Below the pieces are notes generated by a model. That model was not told the DNA's origin and made no database searches. It saw only the letters and a list, made by a program, of their open reading frames with translations. Source: Methanomassiliicoccaceae archaeon DOK (GTDB taxonomy: Archaea > Thermoplasmatota > Thermoplasmata > Methanomassiliicoccales > Methanomethylophilaceae). Taken from it: a stretch of 64,000 nucleotides of DNA. The stretch spans positions 1,116,001 through 1,180,000 of the forward strand of contig CP047880.1 in NCBI GenBank assembly GCA_009911715.1, in the 5' to 3' direction. Below, piece after piece: positions 44,110 through 61,502 of this stretch (position 1 is its first letter; the number at the start of each line of letters is the position of its first letter). The translations under genes and the position numbers were made by a program.

Positions 44110-45420
44110 CGCACCGAAGGCGGTTCCCCGATAATCGAGAACCGCTTCGAAATCGATTCCACCGGCACCGACTACGGTTACTTCGACACCAGGGGCGCCG
44201 CCGCTTATGTGGAGGACAAGGACGGTTTCTCGCACCGCGTCCCCATCGATTCCGACGGCAAGGTCCCATTGTTCGCCATCGTACAGCACTTCCTGGACAT
44301 CGACATGGCCAGGAAGAAAGGGAGCCCGAGGAACATCGCAATAGACCTTCGCAAGCCGGCTAAGACCCTTCACCGGATACCCACAGGCGGGTTCACACCG
44401 GAGCAGATTGTCGCCACGGGATGGTGGGACGATCCCTCCAGCTGCGACATAGAGGGCCTGGACGACTCCACCAACGCGTACATGGGGTTCTGGGACAAGG
44501 TCGGGAAATCCGTCAGAACGAAGACTCCGAGGATAGCCGTCATCGGCACGCCTTCGGAGAGGGAGAAGATCATGACCGCCCTCTCCCAGAACTTCACCGG
44601 GAAGGAGCTGGAGTCCGCTGTCAAGGACGGCGGCATCGTCGTCATGGCAAGCCCCACCGGGAAGAGGGGCGTGGCCGGGTTCTACATGAGGAGGCAGGAC
44701 GGCCTGGAGACCCCGGTGATAGTAGCAAAGTCCCTGGACGAGGACACCATCACCCACGAGTTCACCCATCACCTCAGACAGACCGATCCCAAGAGGGCCG
44801 GTTTCTCCAAGACACCGTACAACCTGGACGAGAACGGACGCATGGTCCGCGATAACGGCCTGAGTTACGAGTCATACTCCAACCTGGAGGAGGCTGCCAC
44901 TGTGGCCGAGACGATCACGCGCACGCGCAAACCTGCAGAGGCGTGCGGATACTTCTGGTACCTTCACGGCACCGAGGAGGGACGCATCGGCCAGTCGGCG
45001 TACGACCACGACAGGGAGACGCTCCTGGAGAATGGCGGCGGTAAGGGCGGCCCGCTGCGCGGCAAGCGTGCCACCGACCGTGTCAACCAGCGCTTTTTGG
45101 ATACCGACATCTCCAAGCTCAAGAACGGAGGAAAGGGAACCAGGGCGGACAGGATGGCCCGCCAACTGGCAGGCATCCCGGAGCCGAAGCCTGTGCCCAG
45201 CGACAAGCCGGGGGCGTGGAACCGCGTGACTGCGGGCCACTGGCAGACCAAGGACCTGAAAGGCGAGACGATTGACCTCTACAAGCCCGGATCCAAGGGG
45301 AATCAGACCCGCAAATGGAAACTGGAGTACGGCGACAGATCAGTCACGTTCTTCGACCGCAGCGATGCCGAACAGGAGGTTATCTGGCTTTTGGACAGGC
45401 AGAGGAGGGAGCTCGCATGA
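44092..45420 (+). CDS. Putative metallopeptidase with DIxGID module (paralogue of the one at 35875)
   Basis: 442 aa. Module at about 45-124 ('RVPIDSDGKVPLF...PEQIVATGWWDDPSSCDIEGLD'). Peptidase domain with His222-Glu223-Phe-Thr-His226 and 'ATVAETITRT' (Glu273). The upstream 'RIAVIGTPSEREKIMTALSQNFT' region also aligns with the gene at 35875. A C-terminal extension (about 310-442) is absent from that paralogue and ends in an alpha/beta domain 'WKLEYGDRSVTFFDRSDAEQEVIWLLDRQ'. ATGA overlap with the next gene. Confidence 0.65.
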   Translation: MVKKLRRTEGGSPIIENRFEIDSTGTDYGYFDTRGAAAYVEDKDGFSHRVPIDSDGKVPLFAIVQHFLDIDMARKKGSPRNIAIDLRKPAKTLHRIPTGGFTPEQIVATGWWDDPSSCDIEGLDDSTNAYMGFWDKVGKSVRTKTPRIAVIGTPSEREKIMTALSQNFTGKELESAVKDGGIVVMASPTGKRGVAGFYMRRQDGLETPVIVAKSLDEDTITHEFTHHLRQTDPKRAGFSKTPYNLDENGRMVRDNGLSYESYSNLEEAATVAETITRTRKPAEACGYFWYLHGTEEGRIGQSAYDHDRETLLENGGGKGGPLRGKRATDRVNQRFLDTDISKLKNGGKGTRADRMARQLAGIPEPKPVPSDKPGAWNRVTAGHWQTKDLKGETIDLYKPGSKGNQTRKWKLEYGDRSVTFFDRSDAEQEVIWLLDRQRRELA

Positions 45421-45680
45421 TGTCGTGCCCCTACTGCGACTCCGACGACATACGCCTGAAGGAAGTCCTGAGACTGACCTTGCTCGATTTACAAAAAGAC
45501 GGGAACTCCGTCGTGGAGATCAGGAGGGAGGTCTGCATGGAATGTCGCGAGACATCCTACGCGTACCGCGTATACAGTTCCGACGATTCTTTCGAATTCA
45601 TACGCAGAGACCAGCTCAAGGCCAGGACTGGCATCAGGGCGAGGTCCGAGTTCGGAAATGCCAGGGGGTGGAGAGCATGA
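45417..45680 (+). CDS. Zinc-ribbon protein
   Basis: 87 aa. CPYC near residue 4 and CMEC near residue 41 frame a long beta hairpin; a basic C-terminus follows ('KARTGIRARSEFGNARGWRA'). The start at 45417 is the ATGA overlap. Confidence 0.6.
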   Translation: MMSCPYCDSDDIRLKEVLRLTLLDLQKDGNSVVEIRREVCMECRETSYAYRVYSSDDSFEFIRRDQLKARTGIRARSEFGNARGWRA

Positions 45681-45889
45681 GCAGCAAGTGCTACCAGGAT
45701 GTGCTACAGGCCGTGGTCGATGACTATTGTTCCAAGGCCGGGCTTGACAGGATCCTGGTCTCCAGAGGGGCGGAGACCGCCCTCCGGAGAATCATGGAGA
45801 ACGAACCCGCGTCGACTGACCCGTCACTACCGTCGCTGAGAAGAGCTGTCATTGCCAGATTGTCATACTGCGCAAAGGTGATGGCATGA
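45677..45889 (+). CDS. Small helical protein
   Basis: 70 aa, helical ('SKCYQDVLQAVVDDYCSKAGLDRIL'), not recognised. ATGA-coupled upstream, and its stop overlaps an ATGATG that opens the amber-interrupted frame after it. Confidence 0.55.
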   Translation: MSSKCYQDVLQAVVDDYCSKAGLDRILVSRGAETALRRIMENEPASTDPSLPSLRRAVIARLSYCAKVMA

Positions 45890-46092
45890 TGCTGAAGCGG
45901 ATCTAGAAAGTGTGCCAGTTCTGCAGGAAGAGCATACGTGTACATTCGAACAAGGTCAGCACGTGCGACAGGTACGACACCAATGTGATGCCGTGTTCAT
46001 CATACAACAGACAGGATTGCTTCGAATGCCTGTTCGAACGGAAATCCAGAACCCCTCACTCAGCATCGAGGGTGAGAGGAGGGCCTTATTGA
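45886..46092 (+). CDS. Cys-rich protein with in-frame amber codon (possible pyrrolysine)
   Basis: The coupled ATG at 45886 gives six codons, then TAG at 45904, then an uninterrupted 61-codon frame with zinc-ribbon-like cysteines ('CQFCRKS', 'CDRYD', 'CFECLFE'). If TAG is decoded as pyrrolysine, as the supposed lineage can do, the product is 68 aa and keeps the ATGA coupling seen in the genes before it. Otherwise translation may start at GTG 45910 (60 aa), which has no good ribosome-binding site. Confidence 0.4.
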
Positions 46093-46135
46093 ACGTTATT
46101 GCGGGGTTTCGTTCCCGCTCATATGAGGTATTGCA

Positions 46136-46936
46136 ATGAATATCGATTTCAAAAGATTGCTAGTGGCCACGACCGTGATGATGTGTGTATGCTGTATTCC
46201 CATCGTCGTCATGGACGAGGGCCTGAACGCGGCCGAGTTCGGAGACCCCGAGAACCCCGAGGGTTCCATAGACAACCCCTATGTTCTAGCCTCACCCGTG
46301 CTCTCATCGGATGCGGGCTCCGTCTTCGAGACGCTGACAGCCGACACTATCATCGCAGGGGACGGCATGAGCGTTTATTTCAAATTCCTCCCTGGGACGA
46401 ATGTGAACGTCTACGCTATCGAGGGTTCGGACTACTCACTATACTGCACGAATCCCGGCAGCCTGTTCTACGATGATATGAACCCGGGGTACAACGGGAT
46501 GGTGTTCGGTACAGCGACAGAGGATTTCGAAATCATCATCCAAGGACCCGAAAAATACCTTGATCTGCATTTCACCGCCGATGCCAACATCGTCCTGTTC
46601 ACCTCTGCCGATATACTTATGGCTGTATCCAACACCGGTATCGAATACACTGCGACCACGAACACTTCGGTGACGTTCTCTGAAATCGGAGGGACTGCCG
46701 CGTCTTGGCTAGAAATAAACTCGGAAACCGGACAGCTGTCAGGAACCTTGCCAGAGGTGAATGTGACAACTGAGTTCACATACGAGATCGAGGCAATCTC
46801 GACGCAGGATGAGGACAACAGCGCCAGCCTTGTTCTGACGATCACCGTGAACCCTGTGCTGAGGTTCCTTTCTGACCCCGATGTAGACGGGGAGCTAGTC
46901 TATCCACACAATACAGGAGGTGCATCCACAGAGTAA
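46136..46936 (+). CDS. Truncated surface protein with Ig-like domain
   Basis: 266 aa. Signal peptide (about 8-30), a beta-rich domain, then a putative-Ig domain ('ASWLEINSETGQLSGTLPEV', about 180-245). It ends 'YPHNTGGASTE' without the membrane anchor its relatives carry, so the gene is probably truncated or its product is released. The base composition is more AT-rich than the surface block at 18-32 kb. Confidence 0.6.
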   Translation: MNIDFKRLLVATTVMMCVCCIPIVVMDEGLNAAEFGDPENPEGSIDNPYVLASPVLSSDAGSVFETLTADTIIAGDGMSVYFKFLPGTNVNVYAIEGSDYSLYCTNPGSLFYDDMNPGYNGMVFGTATEDFEIIIQGPEKYLDLHFTADANIVLFTSADILMAVSNTGIEYTATTNTSVTFSEIGGTAASWLEINSETGQLSGTLPEVNVTTEFTYEIEAISTQDEDNSASLVLTITVNPVLRFLSDPDVDGELVYPHNTGGASTE

Positions 46937-47089
46937 GAAATTGAATCGATCCATTGGCCTGCTGTTCAGGTTCGAATCAAGCAGGTCACCACCCCCAACA
47001 CAGTCTTCGTCCCTGTCTTCCACCTGGCCCGTTCATACACCAGATTGCATCCAAGCTATTGAGAACTCGCTGGCTTATAGTTGAGATGT

Positions 47090-47107
47090 CCCTCCCTGAG
47101 GGGAGGG
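47090..47107. terminator. Hairpin between converging genes
   Basis: CCCTCCC-TGAG-GGGAGGG, a perfect 7-bp stem between the surface-protein gene ending at 46936 and the convergent wHTH gene ending at 47126. Could serve as a two-way terminator; no long T-run. Confidence 0.35.
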
Positions 47108-47125
47108 TAAGAAGGTTGAATTTGG

Positions 47126-47404
47126 TCATTGTGTGGACATCAGGTCGTCGATGTCACCAAGATCCCGGGCTACATTGGCCCCGATGTCCGTCAAACTCAC
47201 CATGCTCGTGATTCCGAAATTCTCTATTGAGATGAGTCCTGCCCGCTCCAAAGCATCCAGCTTCGAGGGCATGTTGGCGTTACGACCGACCGCACTGTAA
47301 ACCCTGGTCTTGGTCACGGGCCCGCTCTCCGACAGGAACAGCAGAATCGGGATCATGTGCGTGTCGCACAAAAGACCAATGGGGCGGTCACATGCCACTC
47401 TCAT
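47126..47404 (-). CDS. Winged-helix regulator coupled to a giant adhesin
   Basis: 92 aa from 47404. 'MIPILLFLSESGPVTKTRVYSAVGRNANMPSKLDALERAGLISI' followed by 'MVSLTDIGANVARDL' is a typical small archaeal wHTH. The ATG overlaps the stop of the adhesin gene (47401-51456) as ATGA, so it should be cotranslated with it and may feed back on its promoter. Confidence 0.65.
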   Translation of the reverse strand: MRVACDRPIGLLCDTHMIPILLFLSESGPVTKTRVYSAVGRNANMPSKLDALERAGLISIENFGITSMVSLTDIGANVARDLGDIDDLMSTQ

Positions 47405-50400
47405 TCCCTCCTGTGTGTAATGATAAGGAACGCGGCAATCAGTGCTGCAACGACTGCCGCGGCAGCACACGCCACAATCTTCACACTGTCGTCATCATAT
47501 GATCCTGACTCGTCCACGATAACCGGTGGGAGTGGGACGTAGTCGTCATCGTCGTCTACCGGCGGAACGATCACAGGGCCGTAGTCGCCTCCAGGACCGG
47601 GCTCGGATGAAACCTCCTGCATGGTATATTCTAACGTGGCATCACCTGTGACGTTGATCGTCTTGCTGATGGTGACGTAGCCTTCCAACTCGATAGTTAT
47701 CGAATACGATCCACCCTCGACCTCGACCGTATCACCGTTCTGGATAAGTACACCGTCGAAGGTGATGGTCGCACCAGATGGAATGACAGAGATGGTGACG
47801 TTGTACAGAGGGTTCTCCACCCTGTCAATAGGGTCTGAACTTTCTTCATCATCTACAGTCGCCTGATCTGACGACTTCAGAAGCTGGAACTGCGGATCGT
47901 CGTAGGTGTATCCTGTGCCCTCCCCGAAGGTGATGGTGGCGATCTCGCCCCAAACGGATGACATCTCGTTGAGGATTCCCAGCGATATGCCGTTGAATGC
48001 CAGCTTCGTTCCGACCTCGGTGATCAGACTGGCGTTGCTGACCCCGGAGACAGTCGTGTCCATGTTGACGGAGTAATAAGTGCCGCCGATGAACGTCACC
48101 TCTCCCCCGAGAGTGACCGTGGAACCGTTGATCACCAACGGGGCATGGAATTCTTCTCTTCCTTGAGAAGCATCGAGGACCACGTCCTTCAGGGTTAGAT
48201 CTGCACCAAAGGCGTTGACTACGTGCTTGTTCTTGTCGGTGACCTTGAGGGTCCCGTTCATCACGGTGATGTCCTCCGCAGTGACGTTGAGTAGGTGGCT
48301 GGAGTTTTCATTGCTGGATGAGAAGTCACCAGACGAAGTGATGGTGAATCCTCCGAGATCGATGGTTATGCCGTTTGTGCTCAGGTTGAGCTGGCTGTCG
48401 ATGTACACGTCTTCAAGGAGTGTGACCGTTTTGTCCTCAGAGTTGGCGGCTGCAGTGATAGCCTCATCGAGCGTCGCGTAACCGGTATCGCCCACAACTG
48501 CGACCCACGGATCATAGCAGACATCCGAAAGGTTCTCTATCGCATTTCCATCAAGGGTGTTGCCCTGGAACGTCTCCGCTACCACCATGGCCTGGGCGGG
48601 GATCGTTGGACTGTTCGAGAAGAACACACGTCCGGACCCACCTGTGATGGTGTTGTTTGTATAATCGATCGCGGTGGTTCCGGCCTTCTGAACCGAGTGG
48701 ATGTACACCGTGGCAACGTGATTGGAATCATATTTGGTGTCTTTGGGGTTGTCCTTGATGTCCGAGAATGTATTGTCTGCAATCTTCACTGTGTTGTTCA
48801 CGTTCTCGTTCACGAATGCGATATTGAGACCGCGCTCGTAACCATTGAATATATTGTTCACAACGACCACGGTGGTTCCCGTGGAGGAACCATCGCCTGG
48901 GTGGATGGCTCCCCTCACCATGCCGTTCCCGTTGAATGTGGTGCCAGTAACCGTGAGCTCATCGACGCTGTATGTCCAGATCAGATAAGATGTGTTAGTC
49001 GATTCCGGTGCATTCAGTATGCAATCTTTGACTGTCAGGCTGTGGATGGACGAGGTTATGTAGAGGACATGATGACTGGACGAGAATGCACAGCCCTCGA
49101 ACACAAGACTTAGTCCGGACTTATCCGACTTGCTGTAGTCAGCAATGCAATTATTGTTGAAGACCAGGTTCTCGAACCTGACCGTACCGTTCACATCTGG
49201 CATATCAATGGAACCACAGGCTATCCTGTCTTCTCCGTTTCCAATGATCGACAGGGGCTTGTTTATTCCCGTTATGCTACCCAGTTCCCCGGAGACCATG
49301 ATGATGCCGCCCGAATTGACCAATTCGAGAGCCTTCTCTAATGTCTTGACTGGAGATTCCGACGTCCCTGCATTACTATCATCCCCGGTTTCAGTATCCA
49401 GATAGATGGTGTTGGGATCCGTTACACCGGTGTCCTGGACGAACATCTGTCCGTCGAAATCATTGTTGGCGGTAATCTGATCCGTATCCAGCACAGAACT
49501 TGTGATGGTTTTATTGTGCTGACGGAAGACTGCAGCACCTCCGGTGGACTCATTGCCTTCGACGGTTATCGTGGCGTTGCTGTAATCACCATTGGATGAG
49601 AACTGGATGAGTCCACGGGTTCCGTCTTTGTTTTCCTCAGCGGTACCTGTAGTGTCTATGTTCGTGAATATGTTGTCAGAGATGGTGTAATTTCCCTTCG
49701 GAACATCACCCTCGAAATAGATGGCGCCGCCACAGTCCGTGAAATGGCAACCAACGATTTCGGCGTTCTCGGAATAGATGTCCTTGATGGCATATGCGTT
49801 GTATACATTGGTGAAGGAACACGCGGTAACGGACGTGTCACCACGACTGGAGAATGGGCTGACTATAACCTTTTCGAAGGTGCAGTTGTCGAGTGTCACA
49901 TCCCCGGAGTTGTTGAACTGGAGCTCCGCGTTGAGGACTCCATCGGCAGAGAATTTTCCTTGCTGCCATTCGCTGTTGAGACAGAGAGCGAACTCTGAGG
50001 GTATGAACTCGAAATCGATGTTCTTTATGGTTACATCCGCGCTTCCGGCAAAGATCTGGTACTGGGCGTTGAACCCCTGGACTCTGTCAGGAGCGGAATA
50101 GCTATCTGGATATGCTGAATTGGTTCCATTACAAGAGGTGCTGTCAATCTTGCATGTATGGTTAGTCCCATTCCTGCAAGCTGAAGCAGGAACGATTTTT
50201 ACCTTCACATCCTCTCCTGATACGGGCTGGATGGTTACAGCGGTGGAGAGACTGGCGGGAAGAAACATTCCGTACTCGCCACCCGGTATGAACAGCTCCA
50301 CCACTCCTGTCTGACCTTCGATGGCATCCTCGACCGAGGAGAATGCCGTTCCATCTCTGATGATGGTGAGCATGTTGGCTCCGGAATTTGTGCCCTCGAG

Positions 50401-51456
50401 CCTGTTGTCGCTGATATCGACATTTTCTGGCTCAACAACGACGCCGGCTCCACGCTGACCGCCGGTTATGTATCCCATCTGCACACCGGGGCTGTCACTC
50501 TCCAATGTGATTCCTGATACAATACTTCCTTTGAGAGAACCGCCTCCGTTATCCCAGTCTGTGAACAGGCCGACAAGTCCGCCGATAGCAGAGGACTCGG
50601 GATTGTCGGCTATGTATTCGGCAGTACCGTTGCTTCTGACAACAGAGTTCTTCACTGTGCAATTGGTGAAATCATTATTGGGGTATGCCGACCCCGCCAG
50701 TCCGCCGACCTTGCGGGTTCCGTCGACTGTAATCTTCTCTACAGAGCACTCGGAGATTGTGATGTCCTCCTCGCCCAAGAAACCGATGAGTCCGCCGACA
50801 CAGTCGCCTTCGAAATCCTTTTCGAGATTATGTCCGGAGACTTTGCTTCCATCGGTTCCGACGACACTGCAGCTGGAGATGCTTGCATACCCTCCTCCGA
50901 TAAGGCCGCCGACCTTGTAATTTCCTTCGATGTCTATGTCCCCAGCTACTTTGCAACCGGATACTGATCCTGTCTGAGCACATCCTATCAGTCCTCCAAC
51001 CAGTGACTTGGCAGTTATCGAAACAACATCCAACGTAACGTTCTGAATCGAAGCGGGCGTGAGGATGTATCCGAAAAGACCTGCACATTCCATGTTCGGA
51101 TCGTTTATACTCAAATTGCTGACGGTGTATCCGGCCCCGTTGAAGGTCCCCTTGAACGGATTCTTTTCGGTACCTATAGGAGTCCATGCATACCCGTTCA
51201 GATTGATAGAATCGGACAGGGATACTGTCTTTCCTTCTAGATCGTTACCGTTATTGACGATGGCGGACAGACCTGCAAGCTGGCTTGCTGTGGATATTGT
51301 GAATGTCGACTTATCCTCTTCGTACCATGTCTGATCGCTTTCCGATCCGTCCCAAGTCGAAGTCGCTTCGGATTCATCTGGCATTATACCGACCAGACAT
51401 ACTGTCATCATCAGGGCGACAACTATTGCAGCCATCGCCGTCGATTTATTGTTCAT
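47401..51456 (-). CDS. Giant beta-helix adhesin-like surface protein
   Basis: 1351 aa. Signal peptide (about 8-32, after 'MNNKSTAMAAI'), GLUG-like repeats near the N-terminus ('VGGLIGCAQTGSVSGCKVAG', 'VGGLIGGGYASISSC'), a long right-handed beta-helix-like middle with many 'ITNNTF/ISDNIF' turns and Asn sequons, then a PEGA-like segment ('IPSGATITFDGVLIQNGDTVEVEGGSY') and a C-terminal 'DDDDYVPLPPV' motif, one membrane helix and 'HRRE'. The C-terminal unit is shared with the divergent gene at 51848. A 13-nt G tract (coding-strand sense) lies 45 nt upstream of the start. Candidate phase-variable adhesin. Confidence 0.75.
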   Translation of the reverse strand: MNNKSTAMAAIVVALMMTVCLVGIMPDESEATSTWDGSESDQTWYEEDKSTFTISTASQLAGLSAIVNNGNDLEGKTVSLSDSINLNGYAWTPIGTEKNPFKGTFNGAGYTVSNLSINDPNMECAGLFGYILTPASIQNVTLDVVSITAKSLVGGLIGCAQTGSVSGCKVAGDIDIEGNYKVGGLIGGGYASISSCSVVGTDGSKVSGHNLEKDFEGDCVGGLIGFLGEEDITISECSVEKITVDGTRKVGGLAGSAYPNNDFTNCTVKNSVVRSNGTAEYIADNPESSAIGGLVGLFTDWDNGGGSLKGSIVSGITLESDSPGVQMGYITGGQRGAGVVVEPENVDISDNRLEGTNSGANMLTIIRDGTAFSSVEDAIEGQTGVVELFIPGGEYGMFLPASLSTAVTIQPVSGEDVKVKIVPASACRNGTNHTCKIDSTSCNGTNSAYPDSYSAPDRVQGFNAQYQIFAGSADVTIKNIDFEFIPSEFALCLNSEWQQGKFSADGVLNAELQFNNSGDVTLDNCTFEKVIVSPFSSRGDTSVTACSFTNVYNAYAIKDIYSENAEIVGCHFTDCGGAIYFEGDVPKGNYTISDNIFTNIDTTGTAEENKDGTRGLIQFSSNGDYSNATITVEGNESTGGAAVFRQHNKTITSSVLDTDQITANNDFDGQMFVQDTGVTDPNTIYLDTETGDDSNAGTSESPVKTLEKALELVNSGGIIMVSGELGSITGINKPLSIIGNGEDRIACGSIDMPDVNGTVRFENLVFNNNCIADYSKSDKSGLSLVFEGCAFSSSHHVLYITSSIHSLTVKDCILNAPESTNTSYLIWTYSVDELTVTGTTFNGNGMVRGAIHPGDGSSTGTTVVVVNNIFNGYERGLNIAFVNENVNNTVKIADNTFSDIKDNPKDTKYDSNHVATVYIHSVQKAGTTAIDYTNNTITGGSGRVFFSNSPTIPAQAMVVAETFQGNTLDGNAIENLSDVCYDPWVAVVGDTGYATLDEAITAAANSEDKTVTLLEDVYIDSQLNLSTNGITIDLGGFTITSSGDFSSSNENSSHLLNVTAEDITVMNGTLKVTDKNKHVVNAFGADLTLKDVVLDASQGREEFHAPLVINGSTVTLGGEVTFIGGTYYSVNMDTTVSGVSNASLITEVGTKLAFNGISLGILNEMSSVWGEIATITFGEGTGYTYDDPQFQLLKSSDQATVDDEESSDPIDRVENPLYNVTISVIPSGATITFDGVLIQNGDTVEVEGGSYSITIELEGYVTISKTINVTGDATLEYTMQEVSSEPGPGGDYGPVIVPPVDDDDDYVPLPPVIVDESGSYDDDSVKIVACAAAAVVAALIAAFLIITHRRE

Positions 51457-51501
51457 CTTTCCTCCTGTACGGAGGGACGGGAGGGAGAAACAGAAGTGTC
51501 G

Positions 51502-51514
51502 CCCCCCCCCCCCC
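51502..51514 (-). repeat. Homopolymeric tract of 13 (G on the minus strand)
   Basis: 13 C on the plus strand, i.e. 13 G in the sense of the gene starting at 51456, ending 45 nt before its ATG. Long mononucleotide runs change length by slipped-strand mispairing. Confidence 0.75.
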
Positions 51515-51789
51515 GTTGCGCTGTTCGCATAATGACATGCTCGATTGAACAGTTAAATGTTATCGCTATGTGTTCCTATTAACATAGTCCACAGATTATA
51601 AATTGGCATTATCATTTAAGCTCAAAACCTTCCAATTCTGTGGCAAACTAAACAAGTTCTATGGAATCATGCTCTGAAATTGGGTTAAATCAAAAGTATT
51701 TCGAAGAAGTATTTTCAATATTATGGTTTGTGAAACATATATTATGCTTCTTGAAGATTACATACAACAGACACAAAGGAAGGTGTCAC

Positions 51790-51799
51790 GGGGGGGGGG
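51790..51799 (+). repeat. Homopolymeric tract of 10 G
   Basis: 10 G ending 48 nt before the ATG at 51848, mirroring the tract of the divergent adhesin. A TATA-like ATATATTATG (51738-51747) lies upstream, placing the run in the leader or near the start of transcription. Confidence 0.75.
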
Positions 51800-51847
51800 A
51801 TTCTCCGAATAGGTTCTTCCCTCCGCCCTCGAAACTGAGGGACAATA

Positions 51848-53596
51848 ATGAACAACACAATGAAAGCGGTAATAGCCGCTACGATTGCAGTATCCATGAT
51901 GCTGTGTTCTGCCTCCTTGCTATCAGATTCGTACGTCGATGCCGACGAACCGATTCAGACGATAGATCTGGATGCCGAATACCTTGAATCGATTGAATCG
52001 ATTGAATCCGGAAATGTGTACGCTTTACCAAGCGATACTGCGTACATCCTCACAGATGACCTCGATCTGGGTGCGAATTACCTGAAGACATCCGGGAACT
52101 GCTCCATAGATCTTGCCGGCAATGTGATCAGATCCAGCAACGACTACCCCTTGACCGTCGATACACTGAATGGTGCTGGGACTACGACTATATCGGACAG
52201 TGTAGGTGGTGGAGGAATCATCGGCTCGGGAACAGCAGCCGTCAGGAACAACGGCAACCTTGTCATCACCGGTGGAACCTTCGAAGGCCAGAGCAACGCC
52301 GTGAATCAGCCGAGCAACGGAAAGTCCCTGACGATTACCAGCGGGACCTTTGAAGCCAACATCCCAATAGAGATTGTCGGAGGAACAGCGAACATAGATG
52401 GAGGAACATTCACAGGAACGTTTGCCGGACTCGAATCCAGATTCCCAACAGGGTTCCTGACCAGCAACTACGTCATGCCTTCAGTCGTCATCTCGGGAGG
52501 AACGTTCAGCGGGGACTACGGAGTCTACACACGCGTCGGCTCCCTGACCATCGCCGACAGTGAACTCAATGGAGACGCCTATGGATTATTCATCGAGACC
52601 ATACCCACAAGCCCGAGCTACAACTCATCGTACCAATCACCTACTGTGACGATTGACGACACCGTTGTAACAGGCCAGCATGGCATCGTGATTGAGGGGG
52701 ATGATGACCACACCGCCACGCTGGTTGTGAACGGCGGAACGATCACTGGACTGAACGGATCCGCAATAAGTGGAAACGGTTCGAGGGACAACACAACTGT
52801 CACCATAAACGACGGCACGCTTACAGGGAACAACAACCCCGGGATATACCACCCTCAGACAGGAGACCTGACAATCAACGGCGGAACAATCACCGGAGAG
52901 AGCGGAGTCCAGTTCTGCGGCAGCGGGAACGTCACAATCAACGGCGGTACCCTTGTTGGGACGTATCCGGCATTGGACAACCCCGGGAAGCCCTCAGGCA
53001 ATTCTGACGGAGCAGGGGTGGATGGCGCCGCCCTCTCCATAGTCAGCCGTGGCCCAGGATACCAGGAAGAGGGGACGACTGTGAACGTCTCCATCAATGG
53101 TGGGACGTTCATCAGCGACAACAACTCACCGATAGCTTCCTACAGACTCCAACAGACGACAGAAGGCAATTGGGCGAGCAACGACGAAACCGATCTGAAC
53201 AGTTCGCTGGGGATTTTCTCCATATCCGCAGGATCTTTCGAGGGACCGTCATACAGGCCTTCCATAGATTTCGATGAATCACAGGACGCCGCGGGGAAGT
53301 ACGGCATATCCGGAGGGACGTTCACAGGGGGAGTCGAGACCTCGTTCATCGTTGACGGCGTGGACTTCGAAATCGGTGATGACGGCTCTGTATCGGTAGG
53401 TGACGATGTTATCGAGGAGGATCGCCCATACATACCCCCGATACAGGATGACGACGACTATGTGCCTCTCCCGCCTGTTGTGGTCTACGAGGATGATGAT
53501 TCCAACGACACCACCACCATCGTCGCCTGCGCAGCCGCTGCGGTTGTCGCCGCTCTGATGGCTGTCTTCCTGATCATCGAGAGAAGGAGAAACTGA
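51848..53596 (+). CDS. Beta-helix adhesin-like surface protein
   Basis: 582 aa. Signal peptide (about 5-27), then many short beta-helix turns of the form 'ITGGTFEG', 'IDGGTFTG', 'INGGTITG' (about 90-400), and a C-terminal 'DDDDYVPLPPVV' segment, one membrane helix ('IVACAAAAVVAALMAVFLII') and 'ERRRN'. The last 50 residues are closely similar to those of the protein at 47401. A CCCTC...GAGGG hairpin lies just before the ATG. Candidate phase-variable adhesin because of the 10-G tract upstream. Confidence 0.75.
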   Translation: MNNTMKAVIAATIAVSMMLCSASLLSDSYVDADEPIQTIDLDAEYLESIESIESGNVYALPSDTAYILTDDLDLGANYLKTSGNCSIDLAGNVIRSSNDYPLTVDTLNGAGTTTISDSVGGGGIIGSGTAAVRNNGNLVITGGTFEGQSNAVNQPSNGKSLTITSGTFEANIPIEIVGGTANIDGGTFTGTFAGLESRFPTGFLTSNYVMPSVVISGGTFSGDYGVYTRVGSLTIADSELNGDAYGLFIETIPTSPSYNSSYQSPTVTIDDTVVTGQHGIVIEGDDDHTATLVVNGGTITGLNGSAISGNGSRDNTTVTINDGTLTGNNNPGIYHPQTGDLTINGGTITGESGVQFCGSGNVTINGGTLVGTYPALDNPGKPSGNSDGAGVDGAALSIVSRGPGYQEEGTTVNVSINGGTFISDNNSPIASYRLQQTTEGNWASNDETDLNSSLGIFSISAGSFEGPSYRPSIDFDESQDAAGKYGISGGTFTGGVETSFIVDGVDFEIGDDGSVSVGDDVIEEDRPYIPPIQDDDDYVPLPPVVVYEDDDSNDTTTIVACAAAAVVAALMAVFLIIERRRN

Positions 53597-53618
53597 ACTA
53601 CCGCTAATAAACACCTTA

Positions 53619-53643
53619 CCCCGGCACGATGCATGTACCGGGG
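53619..53643 (+). terminator. Hairpin after the adhesin gene
   Basis: CCCCGG (53619-53624) pairs with CCGGGG (53638-53643), 22 nt after the stop at 53596. A T-rich run does not follow directly; moderate terminator candidate. Confidence 0.4.
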
Positions 53644-53788
53644 ACCCTTCTTCCGACATGCCTGTGCCATGCTGGCACATAATCTGATGCATAGAATGAT
53701 GGGATTCGATCGACGATGCATCGCATATTCGATCCGTGGTCGCACCGTTGAAATATCCTGTGAGAATACACGAAGACAGCTGGGGACG

Positions 53789-54100
53789 TCAACTGCTCCC
53801 GTCGCCGTCAGGCGCATCGGCGTCCTCCGGCTCCCCGAGGATCATGTCAGCCCTATGAAGGAGCTCCGCCAGTTCTGAGCCCTTACAGGTCAGGCTCAGG
53901 AACGTCCTTCCATCGGCACTGGTCGACTCTAGGAGACCTTGCTCAACCATTCTCGAGATCTTCTCGGATGTATGGGCATTGCGGGACACCATCCTGTAAA
54001 TGTCAGACCTCATGCATCCAGGATTGGCTCTGATGAAGAGCAGGATGTCGGCGGAGTTCGCCGCCCCCAGGAATCTGCCGATACAGCTTCTCTCGCCCAT
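53789..54100 (-). CDS. Winged-helix regulator beside an adhesin
   Basis: 103 aa. 'ADILLFIRANPGCMRSDIYRMVSRNAHTSEKISRMVEQGLLE' then 'FLSLTCKGSELAELLHRADMI' is the same wHTH layout as the gene at 47126. Convergent with the adhesin at 51848. The IS element begins 46 nt upstream of its start and probably replaced or altered its promoter. Confidence 0.65.
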   Translation of the reverse strand: MGERSCIGRFLGAANSADILLFIRANPGCMRSDIYRMVSRNAHTSEKISRMVEQGLLESTSADGRTFLSLTCKGSELAELLHRADMILGEPEDADAPDGDGSS

Positions 54101-54145
54101 GAATCAGACATATCATATTATGTATTCCAATGTGTCGAGAGATAA

Positions 54146-54170
54146 TCTGATACTTTTTGGTTGATATTTT
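54146..54170 (+). repeat. Left terminal inverted repeat of the IS
   Basis: 25 nt, matching the inverse of 55289-55313 with two mismatches (positions 9 and 14). Confidence 0.8.
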
Positions 54171-54203
54171 ATATTTATACTCTCATCCCATTTCGGTGAT
54201 GAG

Positions 54204-55302
54204 ATGGGCAAGAGGGGCCCCAAACAGAAGTTTCTGGACGTTTCGTGTCCGAACGAGGACTGCCGGCATTACGGAGTCCTTGGTCAAGGCAACATTATAG
54301 CCAACGGCACATACCAGACCAAGTCCGGAACCGTCCGCAAATACAAGTGCAAGACGTGCGGTCGTGTGTTCAACGACCGCACCGGCACTGCGTACGAGTA
54401 TACGCATCTGACCCGCGAGCAGCACAACCTTATCGTGGCGTGCCAGGCCAACGGTGTCGGCGTCCTTCGGACCACCGACATCGTCGGCTGCACGCCGAAG
54501 ACCGTCATGAAAAGGACCAAGAAGGGCGGCAACCATGCTAAGCTCGTATCGGAGAGCTTGGAGAGAGAGGGAAGGTTCGTCCGGTGTGCCTCCAGTTCGA
54601 CGAGGTGCTGTACACTTTAAAAAAAAGATGATCTTCGTCGGGGACCATTTCAGAGAGGACGGAGATTGGATCTGGACCTCTTTCTGCTCCGTTGAGAAAT
54701 ATCTTCTCGGCATCGTCGCCGACGGGAGAGGGCACGATGTCGCCGAGAGGGTCGTCAACGGCGAGCTGGACAAGCTCGCCGTCGACCATGTCCCCTACTT
54801 CATGACGGACGGTTACAAACCGTACCGTACGGTTCTCCTGGAAAGGTACGGGATGTATGTGATCGGTAACAGGGGACGCGGTCGGCCAGGGGCCGACAGC
54901 CTGGTGCCCTCCGATCGGCTGAACTACGCGATCGTGGAGAAGACCCGTGAAGGCAGGAGACTGAGAAAGGTCAGAAGATACGACGTGTACGGACATGTGC
55001 CAGACGACCTGATGAACACGTCAGCCATCGAGCGTCGGAATCTCACGATCAGACTGTTGTCCTCAAGAGCCAGACGCCGCACCGTGACCTTCGGGAGGTC
55101 GAGGGAGGCCGTCCAGGCCTCCCTCGAATTGCTGAAGGTGAACTACAACCTGTGCATGCCGCACTCTTCACTCTCCCTTCGCAGAAGGGAGAATGATGGA
55201 AAGCACGAACCAGTCACACCTGCCATGAGAATGGGTCTGACCGACCACGTTTGGAGCATCGGGGAGTTGATGTCTTTTTGTTATAGACAAAATATCAACT
55301 AA
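54204..55302 (+). pseudogene. IS1-family transposase, split by two frameshifts
   Basis: The first part (from 54204) has an InsA-like zinc finger ('CPNEDC...CKTCGRVF') and HTH. A second, short frame carries 'VCLQFDEVLYTLKK' with the first catalytic Asp. A third frame (to 55302) carries 'YFMTDGYKPY' (second Asp), 'NTSAIERRNLTIR' (Glu) and the family's 'TPAMRMGLTDHVWSIGELM' end. Two -1 shifts are needed: one near GAGAGAGAGGG (about 54560) and one at an A8 run (54619-54626). IS1 elements use one programmed shift at an A-run; the other is likely a real mutation. Confidence 0.75.
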
Positions 55303-55313
55303 AATGTATCAGA
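55289..55313 (-). repeat. Right terminal inverted repeat of the IS
   Basis: 25 nt, the inverse partner of 54146-54170. The transposase stop lies inside this end region. Confidence 0.8.
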
Positions 55314-55398
55314 CTACCATGCAGAAATTATAAGAAATCCTGTTCAGAGGAACCGTTGCCCGATGAATAATAAAGTGGAAAAACTGAAGTTGAAAGGG

Positions 55399-55426
55399 GA
55401 GGGACGGCCCCTTAATTCCGTCCCTC
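55399..55426 (-). terminator. Terminator-like hairpin after the minus-strand adhesin
   Basis: GAGGGACGG and CCGTCCCTC with a 10-nt loop, about 115 nt after the stop of the gene ending at 55542 (minus). On the minus strand a TTTTT run follows within about 25 nt. Confidence 0.45.
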
Positions 55427-55541
55427 TCGTTTGCTGTTCAGGTTTCTGTCGGTTGCGCTCTCTCAACGCGGGAGCAGATGTACTCGTATGTTCGCGTTCT
55501 CTGTGCGTTCAACCCTTTTGTTTTGTTCTGGTTCAGTAGCT

Positions 55542-58500
55542 TCAGCTCCTCATGAGCCTCATAGCGACCATGATTGCCATGACGACGATGAGGATGACGA
55601 GGATGATGAGCAGGTAGTCAGTGAGACCCATTCCGGAGTCGTCATCACCGGGTATGACGACCTGTCCACCCTGAGACGGGGAGGCTCCGGTGGCGTAGAT
55701 GATGTTGTCTCCGCCGAGCATGTCGCTGGTGACGGTGAAGGTTCCGCTGATCGTGGTTCCATTGAGGGTCACGACGGGGGTTCCCTCGTAGCCGGCATCG
55801 ACGTACACGGTGATGGTGTGCTCGCCGATGGTGAGGTTGACAGATCCGAGGTTTCCGACGTTGATGTCATCGATGTAGATGGAGAGTCCGGGCCCCTCGG
55901 AGATCCTGATGTCGACTCCGGCGTACTCGACCTCCGCAGTCAGGATGTCGTAGTCTCCGACGACTCCGCTCTTGATCTCCTGCTCGCCGTAGTACCATAC
56001 GGGAGCGACCTCGACTTCCGCGCCATTCTTCGTCTGCGTGAACTCGAGGTTCTCCATGGTCATGATCGTCTTGTCGAGGACGTTGTAGGCAACACCGTCT
56101 GTGGCGTAGACCGTTGCGTACTCGATGTCGTTGATAACGTAGGATGTGGCCTCAGCGACGACCGTTCCGTCCATGAGGTCGGCATCCGCGACGGATGCTC
56201 CGTTGAACACGGCGACATAGGCTCCGTTGCTCATGTCGACCTGTCCGACGACGGCACCGGTTCCGGTGGCTCCGAGGAGCTCGGGAGCGGCTCCGACGAA
56301 GAGGGCTCCTCCGTTGAGGGTCATGGCCCCCTCGTTGTTCTCCTCTGCGGAGACGGTGAGGGTTCCGGTGATGGTCAGCACATAGGGGCTAGGAACGTTG
56401 GGTGTGACAGAGGCATTGGTCCATGTTCCGACAATGATCTGTCCTCCGTTGTCGATGACGACGTCTCCGGAGAGGATCATGTCGGACTTGATGGAGACCT
56501 GGGTCTGGACCTCGATGGTTCCCTCGTTCACCAGGTAGTTGTTGTTGTCAAGGTCCCCGGTCATGTCGATGGAGAAGTTGATGGCATCTCCGGCGATGAC
56601 GAGGGTCGCTCCGTTGGCGACTGTCAGGGCGTTGCTCCTGTTAATCACGATGCTATCTTCGGTGTCGAGTGTGACGGTTCCTGCCGAGACAGTGACGGTT
56701 CCGTCGATTCCGTCGATGCTGAGAGAGTACTCATAGGCTCCGGTGGAGTTGAGCACGGATCCGCTGGAGACGCCGACGGTGCTCTTGGATACAGACACGG
56801 TGCTGTCTACGGCGGCTTCGCCGACACCGGCGGGTCCGGTGACGGTGGCTGTGTAGACAGCTCTGGTAGCGTCGGAATCGACTGCGATGGACGCTCCGTC
56901 GCTGAGGGCGACGTTTCCGAGGGTCACCGCGGAATCGTTTCCGACGATTACGAGGCCGACGCCCTCGAGGGCGATGTCTCCGGTCTCGGAGAAGGTTCCG
57001 GTCGCGTTGACGGGTGTTGTGAGTCCGTTCTTCGCGATGTACGTGGCAGCATTGGACACGGATGTGTAGACACGGTCACCGTCGGTGTAGTAGGCGGAGT
57101 TGGCCTTCACGTAGGTGTCGGCGATTCCTGTTCCATCGGTGATGACGGATCCTGTGGAGTAGAGGTTGACGTTGGCATGTTTGGCTTTGTCATCGCTAAC
57201 AGCGGCGGAGATGGCTCCGTTCTCGGAGGCGTCGATGGTTCCCGCGACGGTGATGGTTGCATCCCTGTCGGGTGTTCCGACGATGAGGTCGGAGCTGTTA
57301 CCGAGGTTCAGCTCTCCGTCAGTCTGGACAGTGACGTTTCCGGTGACCTTGAGATAGAGGTCGTCACCGACGTTGACGGTGACACCGGTGATGATGGTCA
57401 TGTTGCCCTTGTAGGTGGCGTTTCCGACGATGTCGATGACATCTCCGGTGGCGGCGTTGTCGAGGGCGATCTTGAATCCGGAGTAGACGGTGACGCCGGT
57501 CTCCTTGTTAGAGGTCATGACGGCGTACTGAGTGTCAGCAGCGGGCTTGTATCCTCCCTCGTTGACGACGACGCGTCCCTCGATGGCCTGGAAGGCCGTG
57601 TTGGAGACGGATCCGTCTGCGAGGACGGTGATGGTGGCGTTCTCTCCGACGGTGACCTCGGAGTCTCCGGCGATGGACTGATCGGCGGCGACCTCGTAGT
57701 TCTGGTCGATGGTGAACTCTCCGGCGATGGTGATCTCCTGGTCGACTGCCGTGGAGATGGCGTTCATGGCGGCACCGAAGTTGGTGTAGTAAGCCATCAC
57801 GGAAGTGACGTTCTCGACCGTGGACTCGACGGTGTAGTAGGCACCGATGTAGTCAATGCTGTCGACGTTCTCATCCTCCTCGTCCTGGACGGTTCCGGAA
57901 ACGGAAACGTCGAAGGTTCCCGTGACGACGATCTCCTTGGGGATGTACAGGAGCTCGGAGACGTAGGTGGGCATCTTGTAGGTGGCATTGGCGGCTCCGA
58001 GTGTGGATCCGTTAAAAGTCACCTCGTTGTCAGCCTCTGTTTTATTATTGGAATCGACCTGTCCGAGCGTTCCGTTGACGAACAGTCTCTGGACGACATC
58101 GGATCCGGTTCCATCGGCGTTGGGCAGGGTTACCCTGTCTGCGAGGACGGTGATGCCTTTGACGTTCTTTGTGAGGACGACAGAGGAGTATGTGCTCTGG
58201 ACATCGGTGGAGTCCTTTGTGTAGGGGGTCTGATAGATGACATCCTCGTTTCCGACGTAACCTGTCTTGACGGAGATGGTTCCGGTGGTGGACCCGTTGA
58301 TGACGGCGCTGGCTCCGTCGAGGAGCTCAAATGTGTTGGTCAGAGTCGCAGTAGCGTTGTTGTTGACGGTGAAGACGACGTTCTTTGCAACGGTGACGTT
58401 CTCGGCTGTGAACGTAACGTTCCTGCCGATGGTGAGGTCGTCGTTCACTGTCACTCCCTTGATTCTGAGCTGGGCGTTGTCGACAGAGCTGATCTTGGCG

Positions 58501-59882
58501 ATGTCTCCGGAGACGACGAGGTTGTAGGCGCTGCCACTCCTGGCGAGGCTCATGCTGACGCCGGAGACTCCCTTCATGGAGATGCTCTGGTCGGCGATGC
58601 CCTGGCCGGTGATGGTAACGGTGTTGGTATCTCCGAGAATTCCGTTGTTCTCGATGGATCCGGTCCTGGTGAGTACGATTCCGTTCACCCCACCGGTGAC
58701 GGAGGAGGTGACGACACCGTTCCTTTCGATGACCAGGGTTCCCTCGATGGTGATGTCGTGGTTCAGCATGTCGAGGGTTCCGCTGCCGGAAATGGTCAGG
58801 GTCCTTCCCTCGGGGATGGTCAGATCGTCTGTCAGGTATGCCATATCCTCGACAGTGAGGTCCGCGTTGATGGTGTCGCCGATACCGAGGTTTCCGGACA
58901 TGATGACCGAGCTTTCCTCTCCGAGGGAGACTCCATCGGCATAAGTAACGTCATTGACGCTGACACCGTTCATGTTGATGGTGGTGCTGACATTCTGATT
59001 ATTGTACGTCCCGGCGACGAACTCTCCGGAGACGGACCCGCCGTTGATCGTGATGCTGACCGCCTTGGCGCTGGTGGCGAGCACCTTCATCTGGCTGGCG
59101 GAGATGGAACCGCCGGCGTTCTGGACGGTGATTCCACTGGTGAAGTAGATGTTGGAGTTGTTCGCATCGACGGTTCCGGCGATGGTTGAGTTGGCGCCGA
59201 TGTTAATATTGGTGTCTTCGGAATCTCCGTCGAGAATCCTGACGGATGTTCCGGACTCCATGTCGAGGGATTTGAAGGTCAGGTTCGCAAACTGAGCTTT
59301 CTGCACGGTGATGGCGGATGTGCCGTCGAGATCAGCGGCGACGTTCGAGATGCCGTTGGCGGCGTCGAAGACCATGTTGGCATCGCCGGACATTTTGAGG
59401 TTCTCGGCACCTGAGTTATACCAGGACTGCCCCTCGGAGGACTGGCTGATGGTCAGTGTTCCCCCATTCTGGATCGTGATGCTAAGGTCCTGGAAGATGT
59501 GTGTGTTCGTGCGTCCCTCGCCTGTCATGACGATCTTGACCGAGGCCCCTTCGCCGACGGTGATGTCGACGCCATCAATCATCGACTGGTAGTTTGCAGT
59601 GGCCGCGAAGGTCAGGGTAAGTGTGAAATTACCGTTGATAGTGAGCGAGCCACCGGACAGGTTGTTGGATGAGGTTGTGAGGGGAGTTGTAATCTCAACC
59701 TCTTTGTCTTCAGTGAGTGTGTAAATTCCACCATTTACAGCACTTAGGAAGTCGTCCTGTTCCGGTGTCGCCGCGTTTACTCCGTTGTCAGAGAGGACGA
59801 CTGCAGCACCTGCGATAACCATAGCCATAGCAAGTACAGCAACCAGGATCTTTCCTGTGTTTTTGTTCATGTATGCATTCAT
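55542..59882 (-). CDS. Giant repetitive membrane-anchored surface protein
   Basis: 1446 aa. Start 'MNAYMNKNTGKILVAVLAM'; the second Met (residue 5) may be the true start, as relatives begin MNK or MNN. Signal peptide to about residue 37, then over 1300 residues of short beta-strand repeats with many Asn, Thr and Val ('LTISGSGTLDMLNHDITIEGTL'), resembling beta-helix autotransporter-like passenger domains. C-terminal 'PGDDDSGMGLTDYLLIILVILIVVMAIMVAMRLMRS' gives one membrane helix with a basic end. Paralogue of the gene at 61503, with a near-identical leader. Confidence 0.75.
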   Translation of the reverse strand: MNAYMNKNTGKILVAVLAMAMVIAGAAVVLSDNGVNAATPEQDDFLSAVNGGIYTLTEDKEVEITTPLTTSSNNLSGGSLTINGNFTLTLTFAATANYQSMIDGVDITVGEGASVKIVMTGEGRTNTHIFQDLSITIQNGGTLTISQSSEGQSWYNSGAENLKMSGDANMVFDAANGISNVAADLDGTSAITVQKAQFANLTFKSLDMESGTSVRILDGDSEDTNINIGANSTIAGTVDANNSNIYFTSGITVQNAGGSISASQMKVLATSAKAVSITINGGSVSGEFVAGTYNNQNVSTTINMNGVSVNDVTYADGVSLGEESSVIMSGNLGIGDTINADLTVEDMAYLTDDLTIPEGRTLTISGSGTLDMLNHDITIEGTLVIERNGVVTSSVTGGVNGIVLTRTGSIENNGILGDTNTVTITGQGIADQSISMKGVSGVSMSLARSGSAYNLVVSGDIAKISSVDNAQLRIKGVTVNDDLTIGRNVTFTAENVTVAKNVVFTVNNNATATLTNTFELLDGASAVINGSTTGTISVKTGYVGNEDVIYQTPYTKDSTDVQSTYSSVVLTKNVKGITVLADRVTLPNADGTGSDVVQRLFVNGTLGQVDSNNKTEADNEVTFNGSTLGAANATYKMPTYVSELLYIPKEIVVTGTFDVSVSGTVQDEEDENVDSIDYIGAYYTVESTVENVTSVMAYYTNFGAAMNAISTAVDQEITIAGEFTIDQNYEVAADQSIAGDSEVTVGENATITVLADGSVSNTAFQAIEGRVVVNEGGYKPAADTQYAVMTSNKETGVTVYSGFKIALDNAATGDVIDIVGNATYKGNMTIITGVTVNVGDDLYLKVTGNVTVQTDGELNLGNSSDLIVGTPDRDATITVAGTIDASENGAISAAVSDDKAKHANVNLYSTGSVITDGTGIADTYVKANSAYYTDGDRVYTSVSNAATYIAKNGLTTPVNATGTFSETGDIALEGVGLVIVGNDSAVTLGNVALSDGASIAVDSDATRAVYTATVTGPAGVGEAAVDSTVSVSKSTVGVSSGSVLNSTGAYEYSLSIDGIDGTVTVSAGTVTLDTEDSIVINRSNALTVANGATLVIAGDAINFSIDMTGDLDNNNYLVNEGTIEVQTQVSIKSDMILSGDVVIDNGGQIIVGTWTNASVTPNVPSPYVLTITGTLTVSAEENNEGAMTLNGGALFVGAAPELLGATGTGAVVGQVDMSNGAYVAVFNGASVADADLMDGTVVAEATSYVINDIEYATVYATDGVAYNVLDKTIMTMENLEFTQTKNGAEVEVAPVWYYGEQEIKSGVVGDYDILTAEVEYAGVDIRISEGPGLSIYIDDINVGNLGSVNLTIGEHTITVYVDAGYEGTPVVTLNGTTISGTFTVTSDMLGGDNIIYATGASPSQGGQVVIPGDDDSGMGLTDYLLIILVILIVVMAIMVAMRLMRS

Positions 59883-59892
59883 AGGAACAAAT

Positions 59893-59912
59893 GACGTTCA
59901 TTTCCTAACGTC
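59893..59912. promoter_or_regulatory. Small inverted repeat in the adhesin leader
   Basis: GACGTT (59893-59898) and AACGTC (59907-59912), centred about 20 nt before the ATG at 59882. A TATA-like TTTATTT lies further upstream on the minus strand near 59955-59963. Possible operator or leader hairpin. Confidence 0.35.
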
Positions 59913-60178
59913 GTGAAAAAGAAAGGAAAACAATACAGATCCTTACATGACACGAAATAAACACATCGAAATCAATTCAAATTAGAAACAGCGGCCATCC
60001 ATTGGAACTGTTGGCATTAATGTCTTAGAGAAGTAACATAGAGTTACTAAGCGCAATCTTAAAGACACAAAGGAACATCTGATTGATTCGGGTTCCCTGG
60101 TTGCGCCGATGCTCCTGGCGAGTCTTTCTTCCGGGGAATCCATCTCAAGACACCGTTCAGGTGTCGGGACGGGATCGG

Positions 60179-61246
60179 ATGACGGATGAATGGCCGGAAC
60201 TCTACGGGATACGCAGAAGCAACCTGCATCCGAAGGACATGTGGTCCCGCGACACATTCCCCAAGGCGTTCTCCATTGCCCTCGCCAATCATCTCGGATC
60301 CAATGGGGTGCCGCTGAACTATGTGGTTCTGGACAACAGGCTGTCCCCCAGGGTCGACAAGATGCCTCTCGAGGATCTGTACCGTTGCAGAAAGGAAGAC
60401 ACACCAGATGCCGTGTTCGACTTCGATGTCGTTAACGAGGCGTACACCCGCATGGCCGACGGAGTGCCCAGATCCGACCTCGTCGTCAGGAACCCCCGGA
60501 ACACCTCCGTATCGTGTCTGATGATCCGCAACTCGGTCATCCCCGATGCGGTAACCCACGACTTCGAGGACCATCTCATGGGGCCGGAGATCACAGGGAG
60601 GACGCCGCTGCTGAAGGCGTGCGCCCTGTCCGTGGCCACCAGCCTGTGGTGGCAGAGGCGCAGGGCGCTGCCAATGCTGGAGCACGGCATCCCAGAGGAT
60701 ATCGACTGGAGCGATTGGAGCACGGCATCGCAGCAGATCGACGCCATCATCGCCAACTTCAACCTGGTCGAGACGGAGCTGTCCTACGCCCAGAACCCGT
60801 TCCTGCTTCAGACCGTGTGGAAGTCGGAGAAGGACGGCCCTTTCATGGCGGACGATGCGATGGACGCGTTCGTTCTCTCCGACTTCGCCTTCTCCAGGCT
60901 GTTTCTGGATAGGAAGAAGGAGCGTTCGTCCGCCTCCTCGGACTCTGGCAAGAAGGGAAGGGGAATAATCAGGTTCTACCTCATGGTAACCGCGCTCCTG
61001 CGGGACGGGCATCCCGACCTCGATGCCATAGTGGATGGGACTGGATACGGCGTGTCCACGGACAAGGAGTTCATCGCCAACGGGAGGATGACGAACCGTC
61101 TGATGGCCTGTGACAGGCTCACGAGGCCGGCAGTGAGCGCGATGGAGGTCACCATGCTGGGATCCTACGGATTCGAGAGGATGATCATGCCCGACAGACG
61201 CTTGGACATGTCCGTGTACTACGCGGTGAGGACGTTAAGGGGATGA
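60179..61246 (+). CDS. HindVP-like type II restriction endonuclease (orphan)
   Basis: 355 aa from ATG 60179 (a TTG at 60083 would add 32 residues of unlikely sequence). 'LYGIRRSN..PKDMWSRDTFPKAFSIALANHL' at the start and 'VIPDAVTHDFEDHLMGPEITGRTPLLKACALSVA' (Asp123 in the P-D pair) follow the HindVP family pattern. The usual acidic-x-Lys just before the PD strand appears replaced ('CLMIRNSVIPD'), so activity is doubtful. No methyltransferase is visible in the remaining window. It sits between two giant adhesin genes. Confidence 0.6.
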   Translation: MTDEWPELYGIRRSNLHPKDMWSRDTFPKAFSIALANHLGSNGVPLNYVVLDNRLSPRVDKMPLEDLYRCRKEDTPDAVFDFDVVNEAYTRMADGVPRSDLVVRNPRNTSVSCLMIRNSVIPDAVTHDFEDHLMGPEITGRTPLLKACALSVATSLWWQRRRALPMLEHGIPEDIDWSDWSTASQQIDAIIANFNLVETELSYAQNPFLLQTVWKSEKDGPFMADDAMDAFVLSDFAFSRLFLDRKKERSSASSDSGKKGRGIIRFYLMVTALLRDGHPDLDAIVDGTGYGVSTDKEFIANGRMTNRLMACDRLTRPAVSAMEVTMLGSYGFERMIMPDRRLDMSVYYAVRTLRG

Positions 61247-61502
61247 CGCACGGTTTGTACATACACCGAGCTCTCAAGGGTTAGCTTTTTATTCTATCAC
61301 TCATAACCACTGATATCCGAGAGAAAAAAGGCTCTTGGATGCAGAATCGGGATGCTCTGCAGAAAAGCCTCACAGGCTTGCCTACTGATGTGTTCTGGTT
61401 CTGCCCGGCTGCTGTCGGAACGGACCGATTTCAGGGGCGAAAAACCCTATGAATTGTCGGTTCGCAAAGATAACAGCTGAACTGTAAGGAGCAGATGTTC
61501 CT
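61247..61502. other. Intergenic region before the last adhesin
   Basis: Contains TTTTTA after the endonuclease gene (possible terminator) and a GCTCTT...-type imperfect stem near 61330-61375. The last 10 nt (TGTTCCTATGAATGC around 61495-61510) match the leader of the gene at 59882. Confidence 0.35.

Follow-up and report, generated by a model that had tools for sequence, protein, structure and literature searches.

Poly-G tracts in a conserved, structured leader of archaeal surface-protein genes as candidate contingency loci

The window, meaning the whole 64,000-nt stretch of DNA analysed here (G000:C1:1116001-1180000), is part of a genome represented by a single contig of 1.89 Mb (G000). It carries two divergent surface-protein genes, each preceded by a long mononucleotide tract: C13 at 51502-51514 and G10 at 51790-51799. 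The original prediction placed tracts of 13 and 10 nt ahead of the start codons, and the distances it gave were confirmed: 45 nt for the minus-strand ORF (47401-51456) and 48 nt for the plus-strand ORF (51848-53596). It also noticed no other such long G/C runs in the 64 kb, and indeed no other G or C run of 7 or more is found in the window. The description of the tracts as mirror images is right in one sense only: each strand has one copy of the same element, and the sense strand of either gene carries the G. The features of the locus are listed below in window coordinates.

47401-51456, minus strand: gene for a 1351-aa surface protein with a signal peptide, GLUG and PEGA hits and the tail DDDDDYVPLPP..VKIVACAAAAVVAALIAAFLI (domain search, inspection, tail search)
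51461-51475, minus strand: predicted hairpin P3 (CCTCC-gtaca-GGAGG), which hides the Shine-Dalgarno (fold)
51477-51516, minus strand: predicted hairpin P2, in which AC plus the G tract pairs with TTTCTCCCTCCCGT (fold at n=13)
51502-51514, minus strand: G13 tract (sense strand), 5′ arm of hairpin P2 in the leader of the minus gene (run scan and fold)
51517-51529, minus strand: putative hairpin P1 (TGCG-aacag-CGCA), predicted mRNA 5′ end
51550-51557, minus strand: predicted TATA-like box of the minus gene, TTTAACTG
51736-51743, plus strand: predicted TATA-like box of the plus gene, CATATATT
51770-51787, plus strand: putative hairpin P1 (GACAC-aaaggaag-GTGTC), predicted mRNA 5′ end
51789-51825, plus strand: predicted hairpin P2, formed by C plus the G tract and a pyrimidine-rich arm (fold at n=10)
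51790-51799, plus strand: G10 tract, 5′ arm of hairpin P2 in the leader of the plus gene (run scan and fold)
51826-51841, plus strand: predicted hairpin P3 (CCCTCG-aaac-TGAGGG), which hides the Shine-Dalgarno (fold)
51848-53596, plus strand: gene for a 582-aa surface protein with a signal peptide and the same tail type as the 47401-51456 protein (inspection, tail search)

Both proteins have a signal peptide, a long extracellular part and a C-terminal membrane anchor, as judged by inspection and by the shared tail. The genes had been called adhesins; their products are secreted, membrane-anchored surface proteins and in this respect adhesin-like, but the domain hits are weak (PEGA and GLUG only) and no binding domain was identified confidently. 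The prefoldin beta gene found elsewhere in the genome (TIGR02338, equivalog model, above cut-off) supports the view that the host is an archaeon.

The two genes are members of a family. Six G000 genes with the leader encode secreted proteins with a common tail, DDDDYVPLPP...VKIVACAAAAVVAALMAAFLI, and a search of G000 with this tail recovered these six, with a single further match at 862197 that was weaker and partial. Every G000 gene detected with the full tail, six in all, has the poly-G leader. In the same cluster, three interleaved long surface genes of another tail type have upstream G runs of 2-4 only.

Several other features of the region were noted. The genes among the poly-G genes that carry the other tail (GMGLTDYLLIILVVLIVIMAIMVAMRLMRS) are located at 55542-59882 of the window (minus strand) and at 1177503 and 1182576 of the genome (plus strand); all three have GTTCCT directly 5′ of the first ATG and no G tract. 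At 18578-45420 of the window, genes with InlB-type repeat and PKD domains are densely packed on the plus strand, and within this stretch 22660-26901 gave one head-and-packaging PHROG hit. The stretch may represent a provirus or an island of surface genes.

From a base-composition model, the window would be expected to hold around 14 G/C runs of at least 7 nt and 0.34 of at least 10 nt. We found seven runs of 6, none of 7-9, and then the two tracts of 10 and 13. Given the roughly 14 expected runs, medium-length runs are depleted and the two tracts stand out. The same holds for the whole genome (1.89 Mb), where long runs are depleted since only 14 G/C runs of 8 or more are found compared to around 121 expected from composition. 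Six of these 14 runs occupy the same place ahead of paralogous surface genes, in leaders built alike: the two window tracts and four at around 1186932, 1191380, 1195088 and 1198737. The tracts are thus longer than expected and sit at the 5′ end of surface genes, at a conserved position in a genome otherwise poor in long tracts.

To define the extent of the family, we combined tract scans of 31 congeners with the surrounding stretches and a covariance model (R1) of the part from tract to ATG. Strong hits were obtained in G000 (6), G002, G025 (4), G026 (5), G028 (9) and G093 (one), the last belonging to another genus. The covariance-model search of 147 genomes of the order found no leader outside these six species, and a spread of the leader beyond the family is accordingly rejected. 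Rfam gave no match at gathering score across the whole window, nor any at E up to 1 in 45000-64000.

We compiled 28 distinct leaders from five congeneric species and one species of the other genus. The tract is G9-13 in 27 leaders, with G11 as the mode (17/28), and G6 in the remaining one; paralogs within G000 alone range from 9 to 13. In all 28 cases G is on the sense strand and the gene begins with a signal peptide (by inspection). One shared-tail gene of G028 (C1, near 118634; L115, L257) has, in place of the poly-G leader, a C13 on the sense strand 16 nt before the ATG.

In 5′ to 3′ order, a TATA-like box is followed by the P1 hairpin, which is separated from the G tract by one or a few bases, frequently GC. 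Beyond the tract come a short apical part and a pyrimidine-rich arm; next is another pyrimidine arm with the sequence CCTCC, which a loop joins to GGAGG, and the ATG comes last. The MAFFT alignment of full leaders misplaced the tract and P1, and P1 was judged by a shuffle test instead. Its pairing is kept without sequence conservation, with a mean best stem of 4.2 bp compared to 3.07 ± 0.19 in 500 shuffled sets. The arms of P1 differ in sequence between genes of one genome, and an RNA hairpin is therefore more likely than a DNA operator, which we rejected. Little covariation is seen in the tract-to-ATG alignment (RNAalifold).

The TATA-like boxes lie around 34-54 nt upstream of the tracts and mostly 20-26 nt from P1, and the positions of box and P1 correlate (rho 0.53, p 0.005). 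This spacing and correlation fit an mRNA start at P1, so that the tract is probably transcribed. On this predicted transcription start, the G tract would be part of the 5′UTR rather than of the promoter.

In the predicted fold of the leaders, P2 forms between the tract and the first pyrimidine arm, and P3, between CCTCC and GGAGG, hides the Shine-Dalgarno. With more Gs, the tract reaches the CCTCC arm and P3 opens. In minimum-energy folds, P3 of the plus gene is closed at G11 and open at G12, and that of the minus gene is closed at G13 and open at G14. Across the 28 leaders, the mean predicted energy needed to open the Shine-Dalgarno falls from 7.0 kcal/mol at G6 to 6.0 at G10, 5.3 at G11, 3.5 at G12, 2.3 at G13 and 1.8 at G14; the step is steepest from 11 to 12 G, near the observed lengths. 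For reference, 15 candidate starts with a Shine-Dalgarno in the window have a median of 2.7 kcal/mol, compared to the 6-7 kcal/mol predicted for leaders with G10 or shorter, as would be expected of a sequestering leader. With one extra G, the plus gene drops from 5.3 to 1.7 kcal/mol, and the minus gene is at 7.2 with 12 G, 2.5 with 13 and 0.5 with 14. Both window genes are thus predicted to be close to their switch points.

Only the sharpness and the position of this step are informative, because a long G run near a CCTCC arm tends to free the Shine-Dalgarno anyway. Compared to spacer shuffles, the real leaders show a steeper drop (p 7.5e-6). Their half-point has a mean of 11.4 ± 1.2 in the 25 usable leaders and lies at most 1.5 nt from the observed length in 20 of 28 leaders compared to 43 of 168 spacer shuffles. 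Tracts of A or C give no effect, and the shape of the step is unchanged with two alternative parameter sets and at 45 C. These folds leave out G-quadruplexes, co-transcriptional folding and proteins. Three leaders, including L042 in G000, have no usable switch. From leader to leader, the predicted half-point and the observed tract length are uncorrelated (rho -0.13), and we therefore rejected the idea that each tract is tuned to the half-point of its own leader.

None of the 31 genomes of the genus contains MutS (PF00488) or NucS (PF01939), while both searches were positive in control genomes; as neither was found, the genus has no known mismatch repair of either type.

Related surface genes also have G tracts within their coding regions, and six of the seven examined are out of frame. 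In G000 (L031, 119884), a G9 just after the signal peptide of a surface gene leaves the rest out of frame, where lengths of 7, 10 and 13 would read through. Two shared-tail genes of G028:C8 (L140/L248) contain out-of-frame tracts, G11 and G9, that fall within or behind the signal-peptide region (L140 positions 3824 and 6106). Four tandem surface genes of G026 (L138, G026:C5:185500-192500) have a coding G11-12 directly before the C-terminal membrane anchor, at locus positions 1025, 2349, 3659 and 4670; reading the frames from the sequence, three are out of the frame of the anchor and one is in frame. This arrangement suggests a switch between anchored and released protein. The coding tracts of relatives thus occur in both on and off frames, the states expected of phase-variable loci, although homopolymer errors in the assemblies could mimic them.

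A genus-wide phasome was considered and rejected: 17 of 93 examined tracts lie at the 5′ end of secreted-protein genes compared to 8.6% of control positions, and this excess comes mostly from the leader-bearing species. A 23-G run was also seen in or near a secreted-type gene of another congener (G002:C1:73715, L056).

The original prediction was slipped-strand phase variation through tracts near promoters. Phase variation remains the best reading, given the conserved leader, the lack of MutS and NucS and the out-of-frame intragenic tracts, and from this genomic evidence we regard it as likely for these archaeal surface genes. The promoter mechanism is probably wrong in view of the position of the TATA-like boxes. 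Instead, we think it somewhat more probable than not that each tract is a 5′UTR contingency locus at which slippage is read out through an RNA fold over the Shine-Dalgarno. Slippage would change the G run by one or a few nucleotides and would be left unrepaired because the genus has neither MutS nor NucS. In the mRNA, the G run would pair with the pyrimidine-rich arm just downstream (P2). With a short run, P3 would form and hide the Shine-Dalgarno, keeping translation low. With a run 1-2 nt longer, the spare Gs would pair with the CCTCC arm, P3 would open and the freed Shine-Dalgarno would turn translation on. Cells of one clone would then display differing mixes of surface proteins. The conserved leader, with its position, orientation, tract lengths and gene family, is a direct observation, as is the lack of MutS and NucS; the fold and its length threshold are computed, and we infer the slippage in living cells, its effect on translation and its benefit.

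Tract length could also act on transcription or mRNA stability rather than on Shine-Dalgarno exposure, through promoter spacing, slippage of RNA polymerase in the early transcript, a G-quadruplex or blocked decay. Phase variation would still be real in this case, and there is precedent both in the Moraxella uspA1 G tract, which alters transcript level (PMC7302503), and in the poly-G string of Treponema tpr promoters (PMC3656149); moreover, the tracts are close to the predicted transcription start. We nevertheless consider this unlikely, since the P2 and P3 pairing is conserved and the predicted translation step is sharp. The promoter-spacing form is further disfavoured by the TATA-like boxes, which lie far enough upstream of the tracts that the spacing of core promoter elements would be unchanged by tract length.

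Slightly less probable again is the absence of any phase variation, with the G11 arm belonging invariably to a structured leader, such as a Shine-Dalgarno switch that responds to temperature or to a factor, and its length under purifying selection. The concentration of most leaders at length 11 speaks against contingency, as it is also expected of a fixed structural element, and the conserved structure and the uncorrelated half-points fit such an element too. But the Gs are unbroken in nearly all copies, though mixed bases could pair equally well, and paralogs of one genome span several lengths; the missing MutS and NucS and the out-of-frame coding tracts of related genes likewise argue for phase variation. 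That the tracts are functionless chance runs, or lengths miscalled in assembly, is very improbable. Homopolymer lengths are error-prone and the genome has other long G runs, yet position, orientation and flanking motif are shared by 28 genes of six species. This conserved position and leader led us to reject chance; the presence of the tracts is secure, their exact lengths less so.

The furthest-reaching form of this reading, to which we would give close to an even chance, is a family of archaeal contingency loci with an mRNA strand-displacement switch that reads homopolymer length at one-nucleotide resolution. Gs in excess of the P2 arm would displace the anti-Shine-Dalgarno strand, and slippage would set the translation of surface proteins gene by gene, independently. 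If true, an archaeon would vary its surface in the manner of bacterial commensals and pathogens, probably as a defence against phages, hosts or competitors. Such an RNA switch would be a simple rule for reading homopolymer length at the level of translation, and it is relevant to how slippage is tolerated and exploited by archaea that lack MutS and NucS.

Contingency loci made of homopolymers in coding sequences, such as the frame-shifting G runs in surface genes of Campylobacter, Neisseria and Helicobacter, resemble the intragenic tracts of the related genes described here but differ from the window tracts, which are untranslated. Another known system is the thermosensor in the cssA 5′UTR of Neisseria meningitidis, where the number of tandem repeats alters exposure of the ribosome-binding site, as proposed for the window leaders. 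In contrast to these leaders, cssA responds to temperature, has an 8-nt repeat rather than a homopolymer and does not involve an adhesin-like gene family.

A homopolymer survey of 99 prokaryotes, 18 of them archaea, examined coding sequences (PMC2831843), and a 2025 review of phase variation leaves archaea for future work (PMC11868660). A partial literature search turned up no description of phase variation through homopolymers in archaea.

Two further counterparts are G tracts ahead of bacterial surface genes. In Moraxella catarrhalis, a G tract 29 bp upstream of the uspA1 ORF gives low transcript at 8-10 G and high transcript at 11-12 G (PMC7302503). Like the window tracts, it is a G run a short way ahead of a surface gene, here an adhesin ORF, with a switch likewise near 10-11 G; unlike them, it is found in a bacterium and acts at the transcript level, whereas here the host is an archaeon, a structured leader is shared by several genes and the read-out is predicted to be translational. 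In Treponema pallidum, a poly-G string in the tpr promoters controls phase variation (PMC3656149). There, G runs control a set of paralogous surface-protein operons, as is proposed here for surface genes, but the string acts on promoter activity, whereas the tracts described here are predicted to lie downstream of the transcription start. Compared to these systems, the new elements would be the archaeal host, the structured leader common to multiple genes and the predicted translational read-out by strand displacement.
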